Source: Pseudomonas sp. SCA2728.1_7
Lineage (GTDB): Bacteria > Pseudomonadota > Gammaproteobacteria > Pseudomonadales > Pseudomonadaceae
DNA length: 64,000 bases
Direction: 5' to 3'
Assembly: GCF_018138145.1 (NCBI RefSeq)
Contig: NZ_CP073104.1
Coordinates: forward strand, 1,426,001 to 1,490,000
The notes below the pieces were generated by a model. It was not told the origin of the DNA. It saw only the letters and a list, made by a program, of their open reading frames with translations, and searched no databases. A program made the position numbers and the translations under genes. The number at the start of each line of letters is the position of its first letter. The first letter of the stretch is position 1. Of this stretch, positions 43,369-54,064 are shown in pieces.

Positions 43369-44649
43369 TTACATCGTCAGCTTGTAAACCAGTGCCGAAA
43401 TCGCTACCAGACCTACCGCCGTTACAAACACGTTAGAGGCCTGACCACGATAGCGCGCCATCGCCGGAATCTTGCGAATCGCATACATCGGCATCAGGAA
43501 CAGAATCGCCGCGATTACCGGGCCGCCGACGGTTTCGATCATGCCCAGAATGCTCGGATTCAGGGTCGCGATGATCCAGCAGATCACCAGCATGAAAGCC
43601 GCCACGATGCGATCCAGTGCCTTGGCGCTCGGACGCTTGCCGCTCTTCACGATCAAGCCTTTCAGGCCCTCACTGGCGCCGATGTAGTGACCGAGGAACG
43701 ACTTGGAGATCGCGACAAACGCGATCAACGGCGCGGCGAACTCAATGGTCGGATTGTTGAAGTGGTTGGCCAGGTACGACAGGATCGACAGATTCTGCTC
43801 TTTGGCTTCCGCCAATTGCTCCGGTGACAACGTCAGCACGCAACTGAAGACGAAGAACAGCACCATCAGCACCATCAATGCATGGGCGCGGAACAGGATC
43901 TGCGAGCTGCGCTCATCGGCATGCACGCCGTACTGACGCTTCTGATCCACTGCAAACGCCGAAATGATCGGCGAATGGTTGAACGAGAACACCATCACCG
44001 GAATCGCCAGCCACAGCGTGTGCAGCAGCGCCGACGGCGGCGGCACCTGCGAAACGGTGGTCAGGATACCGCCGTTCCAGTGCGGAATCAGGTATACCGC
44101 CAGAAACAGCAGCGCGACGATGAACGGGTACACCATCAGGCTCATCGCCTTGACGATCGCCTCCTGGCCGCAACGCACCACAGCCAGCAAACCAAGAATC
44201 AGCACGAACGACAGCAGCGCACGTGGCGGCGGTGTGATGTGCAATTGATGCTCAAGGAAACTGGCGACCGTGTTGGTCAAGCCGACGCTGTAGATCAGCA
44301 GGATCGGGAAGATCGCAAAGAAATAAAGCAGCGTGATCAACGCACCAGCCTTGATGCCAAAATGCTGTTCGACCACTTCAGTGATGTCGGCGCCTTCGCG
44401 ACCGGAAAGCACAAAACGGGTCAGACCGCGGTGAGCGTAGAACGTCATCGGGAACGCCAACAGCGCAAGGACCACCAGCGGCCAGAAGCCACCCAAGCCT
44501 GCGTTGATCGGCAAATACAGGGTACCGGCGCCAATGGCCGTTCCAAACAACCCCAACATCCAGGTGGTGTCCTGGCGATTCCAGCTCGAGAGTTCAGCGG
44601 GTGCTGCTGCATCAAAGCGCTCTTCGACGCTATTGGCCTGATCATTCAT
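43369..44649 (-). CDS. serine/threonine transporter (HAAAP/SdaC family)
   Basis: 426 residues from MNDQANSVEERFDAAAPAEL at 44649, with GGAG ten bases upstream; a longer reading to 44769 lacks family support. There are eleven predicted membrane helices. The first, TWMLGLFGTAIGAGTLYLPI (about 29-48), has the conserved GTAIGAG segment. VMVFSFNHSPIISAF (about 220-234) is the other HAAAP hallmark. It is an SdaC/TdcC-type proton or sodium symporter for serine or threonine. It ends at a strong terminator. Confidence 0.92.
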   Translation of the reverse strand: MNDQANSVEERFDAAAPAELSSWNRQDTTWMLGLFGTAIGAGTLYLPINAGLGGFWPLVVLALLAFPMTFYAHRGLTRFVLSGREGADITEVVEQHFGIKAGALITLLYFFAIFPILLIYSVGLTNTVASFLEHQLHITPPPRALLSFVLILGLLAVVRCGQEAIVKAMSLMVYPFIVALLFLAVYLIPHWNGGILTTVSQVPPPSALLHTLWLAIPVMVFSFNHSPIISAFAVDQKRQYGVHADERSSQILFRAHALMVLMVLFFVFSCVLTLSPEQLAEAKEQNLSILSYLANHFNNPTIEFAAPLIAFVAISKSFLGHYIGASEGLKGLIVKSGKRPSAKALDRIVAAFMLVICWIIATLNPSILGMIETVGGPVIAAILFLMPMYAIRKIPAMARYRGQASNVFVTAVGLVAISALVYKLTM

Positions 44650-45623: not shown

Positions 45624-46007
45624 ATGCCACTGGTTCGCGTCGATATCCAGCAAAACCCCGACCCCACTTTCGCCAAACGCATCGGCGAGCACATCTACGC
45701 TGCCCTGCGCAGTTGTATCGATGTGCCCGAGCACGACAACTTCCAGATCCTCACCGAGCACGACAGTCAGCACCTCGTTTACGACCCGCAGTATCTGGGG
45801 ATCCAGCGCAGTGATGGCGTGGTGTTCATTCAGATCACCATCAGCGAAGGGCGCTCGATAGAGAAGAAACAGTTGCTGTTCAAAACCATCGCTGAAAGCC
45901 TGCACACCCAACTGGCGGTGCGCCTGGAAGACGTGTTCATCAATCTGGTGGAGGTGAAAAAAGAGAACTGGTCATTCGGTAACGGCATTGCGCAATACGT
46001 CACTTGA
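45624..46007 (+). CDS. tautomerase family protein (4-OT-like)
   Basis: 127 residues; ATG at 45624, GGAG 14 bases upstream. Pro2 directly follows Met (MPLVRVDIQQNPD), as needed for the catalytic N-terminal proline of 4-oxalocrotonate tautomerases. It is a double-length single chain, with a second beta-alpha-beta unit from about 60 (GVVFIQITISEGRSIEKKQL) and a C-terminal LVEVKKENWSFGNGIAQY. This end matches the YusQ/Pput-type tautomerases. The substrate is unknown. Confidence 0.9.
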   Translation: MPLVRVDIQQNPDPTFAKRIGEHIYAALRSCIDVPEHDNFQILTEHDSQHLVYDPQYLGIQRSDGVVFIQITISEGRSIEKKQLLFKTIAESLHTQLAVRLEDVFINLVEVKKENWSFGNGIAQYVT

Positions 46008-46052
46008 GCGGGTGATTGACAGCCCGGCATCGGTGCCAGCATGATCGGCCCC

Positions 46053-46130
46053 ATGAACATTCGCGCGCTGCAACTCACCCGTACCACCACGACCGCCACC
46101 GGCGGGTCGTGGTGTTTCTGCCTGAGGTAA
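46053..46130 (+). CDS. threonine-rich leader peptide of a transcription attenuator
   Basis: 25 codons reading MNIRALQLTRTTTTATGGSW then CFCLR and TAA; an in-frame ATG at 46041 would give 29. Six threonine codons fall between 46077 and 46100. A TTGACA (46016) and CATGAT (46040) could be a promoter starting transcription at about this ATG, so the peptide may be leaderless. The threonine codons overlap the 5' arm of a stable hairpin (46085-46114), and a terminator follows, just as in thr/ilv leaders. It precedes an isochorismatase-family gene. Confidence 0.6.
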   Translation: MNIRALQLTRTTTTATGGSWCFCLR

Positions 46131-46185
46131 ACCCAGCGCAGCAAACCCAAGGCCCCGCCAGCAATGGACGGGGCCTTGTTGTTTC
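46085..46185 (+). terminator. attenuator: pause hairpin, antiterminator segment and terminator
   Basis: Hairpin 1 pairs 46085-46097 (CACCACGACCGCC) with 46101-46114. The terminator pairs AAGGCCCCG (46149-46157) with CGGGGCCTT (46169-46177), followed by GTTGTTT. The segment GGCGGG (46101-46106) can instead pair with CCCGCC (46154-46159), which would break the terminator. These mutually exclusive pairings are what an attenuator needs when ribosomes stall on the threonine codons. Confidence 0.6.
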
Positions 46186-46226
46186 TCCCGTCCGTGCGGC
46201 ATCTGCAGCCCCCAAGGAGAAACACC

Positions 46227-46751
46227 ATGCCCGCAGCACTGTTGATCATCGATATGCAGGTTGGTCTGTTCCACGGACCGGAAAAGCCCTACCAGGGCGA
46301 ACGGGTTCTGGCCAACATCCAGCGCCTGGTCGCTCAGGCCCGCGCGAATCAAGTGCCGATCTTTGCCGTGCGCCACACCGGCCCGGACGGCTCACCGATT
46401 GCCGCTGGCAGTCCTTTCTGGCAATTACTGCCAGCGCTTGAGCTGGACGCAGACATCGATACCCTCTTCGACAAATCCCGCCCGAATGCCTTTCATGGCA
46501 CTCAATTGGCTCGGCAACTCGAATCCGCGCAAGTCGATGACCTTTATATCGTCGGTATGAAAAGCCAGTTCTGCATCGACAGCACCTGCCGCGCCGCCGC
46601 GGATCTCGGCTTCAAGCCATTGCTGGTCGTTGACGCCCACACCTGCATGGACACTGCCGCGCTACCGGCCGCAGCAATCATCCAGCATCACAACGCAACC
46701 CTCGGCGCTGCCTTCGCGCGTTTAATCAACTGCGCTGAAGTGACGTTCTAA
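46227..46751 (+). CDS. isochorismatase-family cysteine hydrolase
   Basis: 174 residues from MPAALLIIDMQVGLFHG at 46227, after AAGGAG. The catalytic triad style is present: Asp9 in LIIDMQ, a lysine/arginine before VPIFAVRHTG, and the nucleophile cysteine in GMKSQFCIDSTCRAAADLG (about 113-131). Members hydrolyse amides such as nicotinamide, N-carbamoyl compounds or isochorismate. The substrate is unknown. It is preceded by a threonine-type attenuator, which is unexpected for this family. Confidence 0.9.
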   Translation: MPAALLIIDMQVGLFHGPEKPYQGERVLANIQRLVAQARANQVPIFAVRHTGPDGSPIAAGSPFWQLLPALELDADIDTLFDKSRPNAFHGTQLARQLESAQVDDLYIVGMKSQFCIDSTCRAAADLGFKPLLVVDAHTCMDTAALPAAAIIQHHNATLGAAFARLINCAEVTF

Positions 46752-48195: not shown

Positions 48196-49164
48196 ATGCC
48201 CGCAACCGTTCTGGTACTGGTTGAAACCATCAATGACTATTTGCCGATCCTCGAACATCAGGGCTTCCACCTGATTCTCGCCCCCACACCCGCCGAACGT
48301 GCGCACGCCATTGCCTCCCAAGGCAGCCGCATCGATGCGGTGCTGACCCGCGGTCCGCTGGGCCTCACGGCGGAAGAGATCGCCGCCCTGCCCGCGTTGA
48401 AGATCATTACCGTCATCGGCGCCGGCTACGAACAGGTCGACCTGCAAGCCGCCAGCAACCGTGGCATTACCGTCACCAACGGCGCCGGGGTCAACGCCTC
48501 GTCGGTGGCTGACCATGCGATGGCGATGTTGTTGGCACTGGTCCGGGATATCCCGCGGTGTGATGCCGCAGTACGCCGGGGTGAATGGCCGAAGATCATG
48601 CGCCCGTCGCTGGCCGGCAAACGCCTGGGGATTCTCGGGCTGGGCGCCGTCGGGCTGGCGATCGCCAAACGTGCGAGCCTCGGCTTCGACATGGAAATCA
48701 GCTACCACAGCCGCCAGGTGCGTAGCGATGTGCCTTATGCGTTCTGCTCGACGCCGACCGAACTGGCCCGGGCTTCGGACTTTCTGATTGTCGCCACGCC
48801 CGGTGGCATTGGCACCCAACATCTGGTCACCCGCGCGGTGCTCGATGCGCTCGGGCCGAAAGGCTTCATCGTCAACATTGCCCGCGCCAGCGTCATCGCT
48901 ACGGCGGATCTGATCACTGCCCTTGAACAACGCAGAATCGCCGGCGCCGCACTCGATGTGTTCGACCACGAGCCACAAGTGCCGGATGCGCTGAAAACAC
49001 TGAGCAACGTGCTGCTGACGCCACACGTCGCCGGCCTGTCACCGGAAGCGACGCAAGGCACCGTCGAACTGGTAGGCAAAAACCTCGTGGCGTTCTTCTC
49101 AGGCGAGCCCGTGCTGACGCCCATCGCGCTGCCACCGAAACTCAACAACCAGCGTGTGCACTAA
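48196..49164 (+). CDS. D-isomer 2-hydroxyacid dehydrogenase
   Basis: 322 residues; ATG at 48196 after AGGAGCC. NAD(P) site GKRLGILGLGAVGLAIAKRA (about 140-159). Catalytic residues are Arg in NIARASVI (about 232), Glu in DVFDHEPQVP (about 261) and His in LLTPHVAGLSP (about 281), the set for formate/glycerate-type dehydrogenases. It probably reduces glyoxylate or hydroxypyruvate or a related 2-oxoacid. The stop overlaps the convergent tssA stop by four bases. Confidence 0.93.
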   Translation: MPATVLVLVETINDYLPILEHQGFHLILAPTPAERAHAIASQGSRIDAVLTRGPLGLTAEEIAALPALKIITVIGAGYEQVDLQAASNRGITVTNGAGVNASSVADHAMAMLLALVRDIPRCDAAVRRGEWPKIMRPSLAGKRLGILGLGAVGLAIAKRASLGFDMEISYHSRQVRSDVPYAFCSTPTELARASDFLIVATPGGIGTQHLVTRAVLDALGPKGFIVNIARASVIATADLITALEQRRIAGAALDVFDHEPQVPDALKTLSNVLLTPHVAGLSPEATQGTVELVGKNLVAFFSGEPVLTPIALPPKLNNQRVH

Positions 49165-50243
49165 AGCACGCCGAGCAACGTCCATAAACGCCGCGATTCG
49201 GCGTCGGCACTGATCAGCTCACCGAGTAACTCGCTCAGCGGTTTGTTGCCCCACTCGACTCCCCGGCGGATCAGATACGGCACCGGGCTATGGGGTTCGG
49301 TGCGGGCCAGGTATTCGGCGATCAGCAGCAATTGTCGATAGGCCTCCTCACGATTGGCCGGCTCGCGAAACACCTGAGCAACCGGCGCAGGCTCTTCAGG
49401 CTGCGTCATGATTGCAGTGGCTTCGACCACGGGCACGGGCGGCGCCGGTTGTTGTGGGTGCATGGCGATAAACTCCTGAACCAGCTTCAGCAGCGCTTGA
49501 ATGATGTCCTGCAAGGGGCGTAATCCCGGGCCTTGCTCACCCAGATAAGCATTGCTCCAGCTGTCGAGCCGTTGCAGGTGTTGCAGGCTCAACAGCAGAT
49601 TGCCCTGGGTGCGCAGCCAGAATGCCAGCGGTGTGGCACGGATCTGGTCGCTGAGTTTTTTCTGTTCATTGCGTGCAGTTTCTGCCGAGCTTTTGGCATT
49701 CTTGCTGTCGTTGACCTGCACCTGTTGAATCTGCAAACGCCGCCAGACTTCCAGGGTATAAGCTTCGAAATCGCTGTTGCGAGTGCCGAACAGCGGCACG
49801 CGAGTGAGCAACACTTCACTGTAGCGACGCACCAGCCATTCCAGCGGAATCACGCGCCACGACTGATCGCCCTCCTCGGCTTGCGGATGCAAGTGTTCAG
49901 GGAAGCGCTCACACAAACCGGCAATCAGCGCCAGACTGCCGGGCAAACCGTCCAGTGCTTGCAGGTGCAGCCACGCTTCGCCGAGCCAGGCGCTGAGCAT
50001 CAAGTCCTTGCTGCGTTCGAGCAATAAAGCAGTGGTGAGTTTCTCGACCTCCGGCCAGTTCGCCCGCTTCAGTGTCGACTGCCAGACCCCGGTCGGCAGG
50101 CTTGCATCATCCTCGCGGCGCAAGTCGCGCAACTGATCGAACTCACGCTCATAACGCAAATCGACACCGCACGGCGCATCCGCGCTGATCGGCGCGAGCA
50201 GTTGATCAATCAGGTCTGGCACAGCGGTCGATGGCAGGCTCAC
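49161..50243 (-). CDS. tssA: type VI secretion protein TssA
   Basis: 360 residues. ImpA N-terminal domain at about 10-140 (LLAPISADAPCGVDLRYERE, then TLKRANWPEVEKLTTALL). There is a charged middle with a coiled stretch (AKSSAETARNEQKKLSDQIR) and a C-terminal helical domain NREEAYRQLLLIAEYLARTE, PHSPVPYLIRRGVEWGN. TssA caps the growing tail and recruits sheath and baseplate. It starts inside the tssM stop (ATGA at 50240) as the last gene of the leftward operon. Confidence 0.95.
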   Translation of the reverse strand: MSLPSTAVPDLIDQLLAPISADAPCGVDLRYEREFDQLRDLRREDDASLPTGVWQSTLKRANWPEVEKLTTALLLERSKDLMLSAWLGEAWLHLQALDGLPGSLALIAGLCERFPEHLHPQAEEGDQSWRVIPLEWLVRRYSEVLLTRVPLFGTRNSDFEAYTLEVWRRLQIQQVQVNDSKNAKSSAETARNEQKKLSDQIRATPLAFWLRTQGNLLLSLQHLQRLDSWSNAYLGEQGPGLRPLQDIIQALLKLVQEFIAMHPQQPAPPVPVVEATAIMTQPEEPAPVAQVFREPANREEAYRQLLLIAEYLARTEPHSPVPYLIRRGVEWGNKPLSELLGELISADAESRRLWTLLGVL

Positions 50244-53200
50244 ATGCCCTCCTTCTGCGATTCAAGGGCGACAGTGCTGCCGGTCACCTGAAACGGTGAG
50301 CGCGGCGCACGGGTGGGCAACGGGGCAATCGACAGCGGCAATTTCGAACCCTGGCTCATCAATGACAGGCGCACGAACATCCGCGTGAATTCGCTGGTGA
50401 CGCTGTTGGCCGACGCGGTCACGGGCAGGCGCAGGGTCAGCGGGAAATCGGTGTAATCCATGCTCGGCTGACGCTGCACCGAGAAGTGCGCACGCATCAT
50501 CCGCAGCAACGACCATGGCCCGCCGTATTCCCAACCGGCCTCCAGATCACGCACCACCAGATTCGGTTGCAGCGGATCATTGACCGGACGTTCCTTGCCG
50601 TTGCGCGCCCAGCGCAGGGTCAGGCGAATCGGCTGGCCGAGCATCCAGCGCAGACTCGGCTGCTCGGCCGCGACCGGGTAGTTGATCTGCTGATTGCCGG
50701 CGAGCAAACCCCAGGCAATCACTTGATCGGCACCCTGTTCATTATCGCGATCGGTGCGCCAGCGCACGTCGAGCTCGACGCCGAGGATGCCGCTCTTGTC
50801 GCGCACGAACAGCGGCGTCAGCCAGGTGCTGGCCTGCTTCAAACGATTGAGAAAGTCTTCAGCGGCGACGCGTTCCGGCGTCTGATTCGTGGCCAGTCCG
50901 GCCTGGGCGACCGGCAGGCGCTTATCGATCAACTCCAGCAAATATTGAACCCGCGCCGGTTCGGCATCCGGCATCTGCACGCCGTTGGCGAATGGAAACC
51001 GGTCAGCGAGGTACTGATTGAAGTAGTTGGCCAGCTCATTCCACGCGGCCGCCGCCTGTTGTACTTGCAACTGCTGACAACGCTGCATGGCTTCCTGTTG
51101 CAGCTCGACCGCGCGCATCGCCAGGGTGCCGCGCCCACCGGCAAGGTTGGCGGTCTGCAACATTTGCAGGCAGGAGTTGACGTCCATTTCGATGAAATCG
51201 CGGCTGACCAGTTGTTCGATCTGCGCTGGCGAGCTGGCCGGATTGGCTTCCTTGTATTTACGCAGTTCATCGTTCAGCGCGCTGAACTGCGTCACGCGTT
51301 CGTAATCCAGCGCCGAGAGATTGGCTTGCTGTGTCGTCAACCACTGTAACGAAGACGTGCGCCGCTCAGTGATGCCGAGCATGGTATTGAACTGCTGCTT
51401 GAGGCTCAGCTTCAGGTCCTGCACATCACTGGCGCCAAACAATTGCAGGCCGAGGTTTTTCGAACCGTCCCACTGACTGATTTCGGTACGGCCGCCGAAC
51501 ATCGGTTGTGCGGTGATGTCTTCCAGCCCCCCGGTAATCTGCGCCATGGCGCGGCGGTTGAGGGCCGCTTGCAGGCGTGTGGAGAGATCCGCGCGGTGCA
51601 CCTCGACAAACGCCTTCTGCAGGGCCATGGCTTGCTCGGCCTGGACGTTGAACACGGCGTAAGGATGCGCTTGGTCGTTGTGATCCTTGAGGCTTAGCCA
51701 CATCGCCTGAGCGGCGGCGCGTTCGGCGGTTTTGAGCAAGGCAATCCGATAGTCCGGCGGAATGCGCGGCAGCTCTTCAGCGACGTAGCTGTTGTAGTCG
51801 GCGAAATACTTCAGCGACTCATTGAGATCATCGCCGTCTACGGTCTGGCCTTGCAGGTTGACGTTGTCTTCACTGTCGCGCAGAGCAACCGAAACGAATT
51901 CACGCTTGAACAGCGCCTGTATCGCGTTATCCAGCTTGATCACTTGTTCCTGCAAGGCCAGTTGCCCGCTGACTTGTTGCACCAGCAGGTTGTCCCGCGA
52001 GCCGATCTGGGCGATCCACTGATCGCGAAAGCTCTGCTGCAGGCGTGTCGCTTGCGTATCGAGGTCTTGCTCGACCTGCGTGCCCAGCAATGTGCTCTTG
52101 CCGACCTTGGTGAGGAAATCGCGATAACCCGGCACCAGTTCCTGGCCTTTGCCGCGACTCCACGTCGAATTGGTCAGGGCAATCGCCGCTTGCAGATCGT
52201 CGACCAGCGCGGTCAGGTCTTCCAGCTCCCGCAGGCTGTTGCCGCTGCCGGCTTGCAATTGATCCAGATGCAATTTGAGGTAGCCAGCCTTGCTGACAAA
52301 GTTGTCGGCGAGGAAATACTGATCCAGCCAGCGCTGCATCAACCCGGAAAAGTTGCTGACGATCTGCGGCCGGTCGACGCTCAGATCAAGTGCCTGCAAG
52401 CTGCCGTCTTCCCCGGCCACGAGCAGCCGATTGTAGAACGCCGCATACGGCAAGGTGCCCGTGTTGAGGTTCAGTGACAGCGCGTTGTTGCTCAATTGCA
52501 CCAGGTCGTCCAGGGGCGCGCGCGGGTTGTTCTGCACTTGATTGAACAACTGGTTCTGCTGTTCCAGACGCAAGGCCCGATCCACCAGATCGTTCGCCTT
52601 CAGATAGTTCTGCCACTGCGCCGGGTCGTCGCTTTCGACACTGCTGCGCCGGTCGGTGCTGCGGATTGCCTTGATCTGTGCCAGTTGCGCGCTCAACAGG
52701 TCATGCAGCGGCACCATGATGTGGCGCTGGGTGGACTGCAAGACTTGCTGCTCAAGCTGATTGTCCAGCGAGGAAAACCACGACGTCGGAAACACCAGAG
52801 AAACATAGTTCCAGTGCGGCGCACGCTCGAGCACGCGCCAGAAGGTCTGCACGTTGCGTCGGGTCGAGTCGACCCGCTGCGCCTCGTCGCTGATCGCCAC
52901 GTAGCCCTTTTGCGCGCCTTGCATCTGCCGCGCCAGTTCGTGGGCATCCTTGACCGACACCTGCCAGACCCAAAGCATCGCCACCACCCAGATCACCCCG
53001 ACCACCAGCGCCACGCCGGCCGTCAGCCGCTGCCAACGCTGACGCAAGCGCAACAGACGCGGCACGCCTTGCGCCAGCCCGCGCTCGCCGACCAGACGCT
53101 GGCGCCACAACTGGCGCACAAAGACGCTTTGCTGCAAGCCGCTGTCATCAGCGGAAAATCCATCCTTGGCATCCTCCGAGGCCTGACTGGCGCTGAAATA

Positions 53201-54064
53201 GACACCGCGAAAACACGGTGCTTCACCCTGGGCGTTACCTTGAAACACCGGCTCCAGAACACTCTGCAAACCACGCCGCAAGGTTTCCAGACGCTCCGGC
53301 AAGGCGTACAGATCGGCGCTCAACTGGCCGGACAAGGTGCCGATTTCGATGATCGCTTCCGCCACAGCGCGATGGATGCGATCGAGCGCCTGATCGCTCC
53401 ATTGCCCTTGCCAAACCGCATCACGTGAATAAGGCGACGACCAGCCAAGGGTACGTTCGCGGGCCTCGTCGGGCAGCGCGCTGATCAGTTCCTGGAAGCC
53501 CGGCAACTCTTCAAGCCCGGTGATGATTACGTACACCGGCACACTCAGGCCAAAGCGTTGCAGCAGATCGATGAAGCGCCGGCGCGCCGCCAGACCTAGG
53601 CTGGCAGCCTGTTCGAGATTACTCAGGCGACTCACCGGCACCAGCCAGACCACCCCGTCCAGCGGCCGCTTGCTGCGCATCCGCAAGATCAAACCGAGCA
53701 ACCGCCACCAGCCGCCACGCTGCAAATGCATGCCGTCGTCGGGCAGAAACAACGCCTGCGGCACCACCAGCACGGCGCCTTCCGGGTCCGACCACCAGCG
53801 GCCGAACCACGCCGGTTTGTCGGTCGGTTGCAGACGCCATTCACTGACCAGTTGCGTGCCCTGGGTTTCGTCGCCGAGCATCAGCAGCCATGGCATCTGA
53901 TAGCGATCGTGACTGCCCTGCTCCTGCTCCATTTGTCGCACGGCTGCGTAGAAACTGCGGATAGCGGCGCCGCTCTGAGTGCGCAACCACCACACCGCCA
54001 CCGCAATGATCACCACGACCAGCAGTAGCGCGACACCCCACACGACCATCGTCAGGGTACTCAT
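50240..54064 (-). CDS. tssM: type VI secretion membrane subunit TssM (IcmF)
   Basis: 1274 residues. N-terminal membrane helix MVVWGVALLLVVVIIAVAVW, then a cytoplasmic domain, another helix near 355-375 (RLTAGVALVVGVIWVVAMLW) and a large periplasmic region to the end (IcmF and DUF1215-type domains). The cytoplasmic domain has WLLMLGDETQGTQLVSEW where many TssM have a Walker A (G-x4-GKT); the lysine and the loop are missing. TssM forms the trans-envelope core with TssL and TssJ. The start overlaps the tssL stop by four bases. Confidence 0.96.
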   Translation of the reverse strand: MSTLTMVVWGVALLLVVVIIAVAVWWLRTQSGAAIRSFYAAVRQMEQEQGSHDRYQMPWLLMLGDETQGTQLVSEWRLQPTDKPAWFGRWWSDPEGAVLVVPQALFLPDDGMHLQRGGWWRLLGLILRMRSKRPLDGVVWLVPVSRLSNLEQAASLGLAARRRFIDLLQRFGLSVPVYVIITGLEELPGFQELISALPDEARERTLGWSSPYSRDAVWQGQWSDQALDRIHRAVAEAIIEIGTLSGQLSADLYALPERLETLRRGLQSVLEPVFQGNAQGEAPCFRGVYFSASQASEDAKDGFSADDSGLQQSVFVRQLWRQRLVGERGLAQGVPRLLRLRQRWQRLTAGVALVVGVIWVVAMLWVWQVSVKDAHELARQMQGAQKGYVAISDEAQRVDSTRRNVQTFWRVLERAPHWNYVSLVFPTSWFSSLDNQLEQQVLQSTQRHIMVPLHDLLSAQLAQIKAIRSTDRRSSVESDDPAQWQNYLKANDLVDRALRLEQQNQLFNQVQNNPRAPLDDLVQLSNNALSLNLNTGTLPYAAFYNRLLVAGEDGSLQALDLSVDRPQIVSNFSGLMQRWLDQYFLADNFVSKAGYLKLHLDQLQAGSGNSLRELEDLTALVDDLQAAIALTNSTWSRGKGQELVPGYRDFLTKVGKSTLLGTQVEQDLDTQATRLQQSFRDQWIAQIGSRDNLLVQQVSGQLALQEQVIKLDNAIQALFKREFVSVALRDSEDNVNLQGQTVDGDDLNESLKYFADYNSYVAEELPRIPPDYRIALLKTAERAAAQAMWLSLKDHNDQAHPYAVFNVQAEQAMALQKAFVEVHRADLSTRLQAALNRRAMAQITGGLEDITAQPMFGGRTEISQWDGSKNLGLQLFGASDVQDLKLSLKQQFNTMLGITERRTSSLQWLTTQQANLSALDYERVTQFSALNDELRKYKEANPASSPAQIEQLVSRDFIEMDVNSCLQMLQTANLAGGRGTLAMRAVELQQEAMQRCQQLQVQQAAAAWNELANYFNQYLADRFPFANGVQMPDAEPARVQYLLELIDKRLPVAQAGLATNQTPERVAAEDFLNRLKQASTWLTPLFVRDKSGILGVELDVRWRTDRDNEQGADQVIAWGLLAGNQQINYPVAAEQPSLRWMLGQPIRLTLRWARNGKERPVNDPLQPNLVVRDLEAGWEYGGPWSLLRMMRAHFSVQRQPSMDYTDFPLTLRLPVTASANSVTSEFTRMFVRLSLMSQGSKLPLSIAPLPTRAPRSPFQVTGSTVALESQKEGM

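Follow-up and report, generated by a model that had tools for sequence, protein, structure and literature searches.

In the window, a 64,000-nt stretch of a Pseudomonas genome of 6.78 Mb that forms a single contig, the region between a tautomerase gene and a gene for an isochorismatase-like cysteine hydrolase very probably contains a ribosome-mediated attenuator that senses the charging of tRNA-Thr, as judged from its anatomy, its conservation and the predicted dependence of its folding on where a ribosome stalls. Between the two genes lie a promoter, a 25-codon ORF, a stem over threonine codons, a GGCGGG/CCCGCC pairing that competes with it and a hairpin resembling a terminator. An earlier note on this DNA had proposed attenuation logic of the thr/ilv type, and this was supported by both the conservation of the leader and its folding. 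The target of this probable thr-type attenuator is unexpected and widely conserved; the leaderless geometry and a likely hairpin over the Shine–Dalgarno (SD) sequence of the hydrolase gene are additions to what the note had described.

The tautomerase gene (45624–46007, PF14552) ends with a stop codon at 46007. A promoter scan found a sigma-70-type promoter on the + strand at 46016–46045, with a −35 element TTGACA (46016–46021), 18 intervening nt and a −10 element CATGAT (46040–46045), compared to a mean of 0.1 in shuffled sequences. Transcription would be expected to start at ≈46052–46053, and the ATG of the leader ORF (46053–46130, + strand), which encodes the 25-residue peptide MNIRALQLTRTTTTATGGSWCFCLR, is at 46053. 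This ATG column was shared by all 116 same-genus leaders (116/116). The coordinates in the earlier note held, with the exception of the start of the ORF at 46041, where the ATG lies inside the −10 box. The best −10-like hexamer ended 6–9 nt 5′ of the leader ATG in 115 of the 116 same-genus loci, and an SD-like motif preceded the leader ATG in 7 of 116, as against 112 of 116 for the hydrolase ATG. In betaproteobacterial leaders, the −10 box stood 6–7 nt from the ATG in seven of eight cases and at 4 nt in L202, and in the Shewanella leader it was 6 nt before the ATG. The leaders of Erwiniaceae and Rahnella (Duffyella, Pantoea and Rahnella; L270–L273) had no convincing −10 box beside the ATG. From the −10 geometry and the scarcity of SD motifs, the leader ORF looks like a leaderless mRNA and is probably translated as such.

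Threonine accounts for six of eight codons at 46077–46100 (+ strand) in the window leader (T9, T11–T14 and T16), a cluster of regulatory codons of the kind that marks the attenuator class, and these are presumably the sensing codons. Among the 114 distinct leaders, which came from loci preselected by a Thr filter, Thr was present in column 9 in 106, in column 11 in 102, in column 12 in 110, in column 13 in 111 and in column 14 in 113; column 16, with Thr in 19 of 107, was not conserved. By alignment column, codons 7, 8 and 16 and the tail of the peptide drifted freely in these leaders, changes at codons 9, 11 and 15 fell mostly in the third codon position, and codons 12–14 were almost invariant in all three positions, so that coding and RNA pairing are inseparable there. 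Judging by the Thr columns and the third-position variation at codons 9, 11 and 15, the leader appears to be read as protein. The Gly-Gly after the Thr run was kept and appears to coincide with the GGCGGG of segment 2 of the attenuator. The earlier note had made its case depend on a peptide conserved among relatives, and the Thr run and Ala-x-Gly-Gly were indeed kept as the only conserved parts, with the remaining peptide drifting.

The peptide also bears on two other possible modes of action. One is that the leader senses ribosome-targeting drugs of the chloramphenicol type, which cause stalling after Ala, Ser or Thr, and not Thr-tRNA. Chloramphenicol is reported to stall ribosomes most after codons for these three residues (PMC12121999), but a single such codon would be enough, yet the leaders have kept a Thr run with Ser and Ala in the minority (691 T, 48 S, 44 R and 16 A in the densest segment of the leaders, a segment that was picked for Thr). 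We consider drug sensing of this type to be very improbable. The other is that the terminated leader RNA or the peptide also acts in trans, like rnTrpL and peTrpL of Sinorhizobium meliloti, where the attenuator RNA is described as likewise starting at its AUG (PMC7298713). The ends and lengths of the leader peptides vary freely, so that the peptide is unlikely to have a conserved function in trans, and trans action as a whole appears improbable.

Three pairings were predicted on the + strand. The 1:2 stem (46085–46114; 46085–46097 with 46101–46114) has one bulge and covers the Thr codons. The 2:3 antiterminator (46101–46159) joins GGCGGG at 46101–46106 to CCCGCC at 46154–46159, and the two are exactly complementary, as previously claimed. 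The 3:4 terminator hairpin (≈46148–46178) has a GCAA loop and one bulged A, and is followed by a T-rich tail to ≈46185; in Pseudomonas leaders, this tail had a mean of 6.7 T in 8 nt. A simple terminator scan of the window gave no site at the 3:4 hairpin, maybe because the scan disallows the bulged A in the stem. The 201-nt sequence folded at −87.5 kcal/mol, compared to −68.7 ± 4.3 kcal/mol for shuffled sequences (z = −4.4; 0/200). RNAalifold on alignment A1 found no pair in which both sides had changed.

The dependence of these pairings on the ribosome was modeled in the 114 distinct leaders by folding the transcript up to segment 3 with the ribosome-covered part removed. The mean probability of the 2:3 pairing, P(2:3), was 0.23 without a ribosome, 0.75–0.86 when the A site was placed one to five codons ahead of the last Thr (0.86 at three), 0.10 at three codons beyond the last Thr and 0 at the stop codon, as against 0.32, 0.27, 0.19 and 0 for shuffled leaders at the same four positions. 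In every one of the 114 leaders, P(2:3) exceeded 0.5 for at least one Thr codon. A strict Thr-dependent switch pattern was found in 71 of 114 natural leaders vs. 11 of 342 shuffled ones, and a rise in P(2:3) of more than 0.3 in 94 of 114 vs. 20 of 342. The strict pattern was missed by 43 of the 114, and in 19 of the 114 P(2:3) was above 0.5 even without a ribosome, which is beyond the reach of the simple model. The window leader gave 0.78–0.88 at codons 9–13 and 0.33 at codon 14, and nowhere else did it exceed 0.12. Among 13 leaders from other genera, two of which (L194 and L227) were scored with segment 3 misplaced, the switch pattern was clear in seven (L202, L206, L213 and L271–L274); P(2:3) was high without a ribosome in L200 and remained high beyond the run in L212, L218 and L270. 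In these folding calculations, 1:2, 2:3 and 3:4 are mutually exclusive and tied to the position of the ribosome, as in ribosome-mediated transcription attenuators.

Behind the terminator, a second hairpin, 5:6 (46180–46224, + strand), pairs TGTTTCTCC at 46180–46188 with GGAGAAACA at 46216–46224 and covers the SD of the hydrolase gene (GGAG, 46216–46219). A possible alternative pairing, 4:5 (46164–46195, + strand; 46164–46173 with 46186–46195), would expose it. In a swap test on 21 divergent lineages, which counts them as independent though they are related, the native 5:6 helices beat the swapped ones (−11.8 vs. −9.1 kcal/mol; 0 of 20,000 permutations), as did the native 4:5 helices (−14.5 vs. 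−12.0 kcal/mol; 0 of 20,000). The two pairings have bases in common, and 4:5 no longer stood out when the 5:6 bases were masked (1561 of 20,000). For the five lineages without CGGGG, the swap test of 5:6 was not significant (3309 of 20,000). Support for this second lock came from the swap test and from the duplex z-scores (means −1.6 and −1.5), and the other folding tests hardly separated natural from shuffled sequences. Pair probabilities of 4:5 and 5:6 were no better than in shuffles (both >0.5 in 112 of 123 natural and 526 of 615 shuffled sequences), pairing of the SD in 5:6 was 0.80 in natural vs. 0.73 in shuffled sequences, and ensemble folding with segment 4 free rarely opened the SD (ON minus OFF >0.3 in 4 of 110, with the SD interval set two bases off). 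Given the shared bases, the masked result and the weak ensemble signal, it is likely that the 5:6 hairpin hides the hydrolase SD and possible that the 4:5 pairing releases it.

These elements suggest the following mechanism. RNA polymerase would start on the leader AUG or immediately beside it, so that the ORF would be translated from a leaderless mRNA. As long as Thr-tRNA is plentiful, the ribosome would reach the stop codon and cover segment 2, and the 3:4 hairpin would end transcription. With scarce Thr-tRNA, due to threonine starvation or to a blocked threonyl-tRNA synthetase (ThrRS), the ribosome would stall on the Thr codons and cover segment 1; 2:3 would then form, the terminator would fail and hydrolase mRNA would be made. 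Because the hydrolase SD would be hidden in the 5:6 hairpin, read-through by itself may yield little protein. Segment 4, freed by 2:3, could perhaps pair with segment 5 and open the SD. In the Duffyella, Pantoea and Rahnella leaders L270–L273, the 8 nt after the hairpin contained 0–3 T, which makes transcription termination doubtful there, and in these four enterobacterial leaders without a U tract, translation would remain the controlled step.

A search of 298 same-genus genomes at an E-value of 1e-30 or better matched the hydrolase in 116 genomes at 121 places, and a Thr-run leader, as defined by the Thr-run filter, was present upstream of 116 of the 121 loci. Of the other five, L133 and L147 have kept the hairpin but lost either the Thr run or the greater part of the leader; L022 is a hydrolase locus without any trace of a leader, and L151 and L152 are distant paralogues, 44% and 41% identical, without a Thr-run leader. 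The leader DNA was matched in 109 of the 298 genomes. By coordinates, the near-full matches sit immediately upstream of the hydrolase gene, and many of the short matches consist of the hairpin alone; short matches to the terminator sequence, GNRA loop included (46150–46178), also occurred elsewhere in many of the genus's genomes. Remnants were seen in two genomes that lack the hydrolase gene. One locus (L153, genome G263) was an orphan Thr leader with its hairpin and no hydrolase match behind it, resembling a remnant, and another (L154, genome G177) was a deletion scar, with most of the leader and the hydrolase gene gone and both ends left.

Beyond the genus, a wider contig search was used, from which the best 80 of 488 relatives were kept as named loci. 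A Thr-run leader was found in 79 of these 80, including Rugamonas, two Andreprevotia, Pseudogulbenkiania, Shewanella, Cupriavidus and two Burkholderia. Ten records from plasmid and phage collections (eight of 109 matches, one further and one of 8) were opened and filtered for at least three Thr; seven had the leader (Duffyella, three Pantoea, Rahnella, Paraburkholderia and P. silvicola) and three did not (Aeromonas L269, Klebsiella L277 and the phage-labelled contig L278). In a class-wide sample of 369 genomes, 24 had a match to the hydrolase at 1e-20, by distant homologues; the 24 placed loci of 26 fetched from this sample had no Thr run, and L249 alone passed a loose Thr filter.

The same survey addresses the notion that the hairpin merely terminates transcription of the tautomerase gene before it and that the ORF arose by chance. 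The tautomerase stop at 46007 and the recurrence of the hairpin sequence elsewhere as short matches would agree with it, but a separate promoter lies between the tautomerase gene and the leader ORF, and the tautomerase family (cluster 8) was found at 18 of the 80 named loci, as against 79 of 80 for the leader. A function of the hairpin as tautomerase terminator only was rejected in view of the leader having its own promoter and occurring without the tautomerase in relatives, and the reading as a whole is extremely improbable.

On a tree of 62 chosen rows, midpoint-rooted and with many forks open, the leader label needed 4 changes; shuffled labels needed 10.4, and 0 of 500 shuffles gave so few. 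A single gain with three losses (L022/L187, L133 and L147) would be consistent with this. Rows lacking the leader include that of Aeromonas and those of six paralogues. The genes flanking the 80 named loci fell into 32 upstream and 28 downstream families, from which no threonine pathway partner was apparent; the earlier note's idea that a threonine-derived compound is processed at this locus is possible. From the leader's distribution and the tree, we infer that the leader is a trait of this hydrolase subfamily and moves together with the gene, amid changing neighbours. A leader model gave one strong match in the window's own genome (E = 6e-25). The earlier note had also suggested that the leader might have been moved from another operon; since it accompanies a single hydrolase clade through several orders and has seldom been lost, and since its own genome contains one strong match, such a move, as a recent and accidental transplant of a thr leader, is unsupported. 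The next match in the genome (L236, E = 0.009) was a hairpin that follows some other gene and has no Thr run, and the stretches fetched upstream of hom and thrS contained no Thr-rich short ORF on the sense strand. The filter also let through a pair of T-rich short ORFs, of which one (L280) lies on the opposite strand and the other within thrS.

The gene behind the leader (46227–46751, + strand) encodes an isochorismatase-like cysteine hydrolase of 174 residues (PF00857, 121.4 bits; cut-off 27). Residues D9, K83 and C116, which we take to be the Asp-Lys-Cys triad, were invariant in 16 diverse orthologues. The AlphaFold2 model had an isochorismatase-like fold with a mean pLDDT of 92, and the top structures found by Foldseek, at 30–34% identity, were 3oqp, PP1826 (4h17), CrcA/PA1677 (8cib; described in PMC10213629) and 2a67. 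The fold is shared with these four, whereas the window hydrolase belongs to a separate clade with a Thr leader; the six paralogue rows of the tree that lack a Thr leader are homologues other than these structures. The hydrolase missed the NCBIfam equivalog cut-offs for PRK11440, biuret amidohydrolase, PRK11609 nicotinamidase and RutB, and it had no match in an anti-phage defence library. Near the Thr leader, the window contains a TdcC-like serine/threonine transporter gene (43369–44643, − strand; TIGR00814, 539.4 bits vs. 525.8). In the Duffyella record (L270, 2012–3673), a RidA-family gene and an amino acid transporter gene are located beside the Thr-leader hydrolase; RutC likewise stands by RutB. 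Elsewhere in the window, at 1010–1191 (− strand), an Rfam C4 antisense RNA (77 bits), usually a phage or plasmid immunity feature, adjoins an a1/b1 target (47.4 bits), both over the gathering score, and two ORFs at 49161–54064 (− strand; 360 and 1274 residues) presumably resemble type VI secretion parts.

The leader of the thr operon, which controls thrABC and carries Ile codons too, has a Thr-rich peptide and 1:2/2:3/3:4 logic, as does the leader described here. The latter differs in having another target, in being apparently leaderless and in its extra SD hairpin, and it is not a member of the corresponding Rfam family (RF00506, Thr_leader), scoring 17.3 bits against a cut-off of 55. In translational attenuators of the erm/cat type, stalling on the leader ORF opens the hidden SD of a protective gene; these sense a drug-bound ribosome, whereas the present leader, to judge by its Thr run, would respond to tRNA charging, and it has a terminator as well. 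Leaderless parallels are found in the trpL attenuator of S. meliloti, the RNA of which is reported to start at the leader ATG (PMC7298713), and in the leaderless polycysteine short ORFs of mycobacteria, which have contiguous codons and are reported to control downstream genes (PMC9031893, PMC4633059). The former differs in concerning tryptophan, a biosynthetic operon and an alphaproteobacterium; the latter share the run of codons for one amino acid, but this is cysteine, in actinobacteria. In a literature search that covered a minority of subscription journals, the titles and abstracts listed contained no earlier report of this leader, and none was listed of a leaderless attenuator in Pseudomonas.

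A leader that appears to sense threonine charging in front of the hydrolase gene suggests that the enzyme is needed when the use of threonine is blocked, perhaps by a natural antibiotic. Thr-tRNA drops when threonine is scarce or when its synthetase is blocked, and the same attenuator would serve in either case. In a shortage, the enzyme might act on an amide, a lactone or a carbamoyl compound and so release threonine or one of its precursors. This matches the logic of amino acid attenuators, and the hydrolase fold family includes amide hydrolases. The TdcC-type transporter at 43369–44643, the family of which (cluster 2) recurs in 53 of the 80 named loci, would also agree with such a role, but among 22 loci with the gene order printed, it was present in seven, all Pseudomonas, and the 32 upstream and 28 downstream families of the 80 loci included no constant threonine pathway partner. 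A role in threonine supply is a reasonable possibility, though short of probable.

The enzyme might instead inactivate compounds that block threonine charging, such as obafluorin-like beta-lactones or borrelidin-like macrolides, and provide inducible protection. Borrelidin is reported to increase ribosome stops at Thr codons (PMC13410324), and obafluorin, a beta-lactone from P. fluorescens, to inhibit ThrRS in a way that requires the intact lactone (PMC10619133, PMC9880928). HqiA, described as a 237-residue member of the cysteine-hydrolase group of the same superfamily, is reported to open the lactone of AHLs (PMC5430456). A stand-alone hydrolase gene with changing neighbours would also suit such a function. 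However, the known immunity to obafluorin is described as a second ThrRS, ObaO, and not a hydrolase (PMC10619133), and the window's own genome has one thrS over the cut-off and no sign of a producer. We regard protection against ThrRS inhibitors as about as likely as a role in threonine supply, and likewise short of probable. It is rather unlikely that the whole combination holds, in which a leaderless, double-locked switch (terminator and hidden SD), present in several proteobacterial orders, would detect the ThrRS poisons of competing microbes and induce a stand-alone hydrolase to destroy them.

The control of biosynthesis by amino-acid attenuators is textbook knowledge. Here, the leader has been kept in front of an orphan hydrolase in Pseudomonas, Burkholderiales, Chitinibacteraceae, Shewanella and Erwiniaceae, and an attenuator kept with such a gene tells when the enzyme is needed, and thereby offers a direct handle on its substrate. 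In gamma- and betaproteobacteria, the system would be a further case of a leaderless attenuator, possibly one controlling both termination and translation. If it does serve to detect ThrRS poisons, it would represent an amino-acid attenuator turned into an antibiotic alarm.
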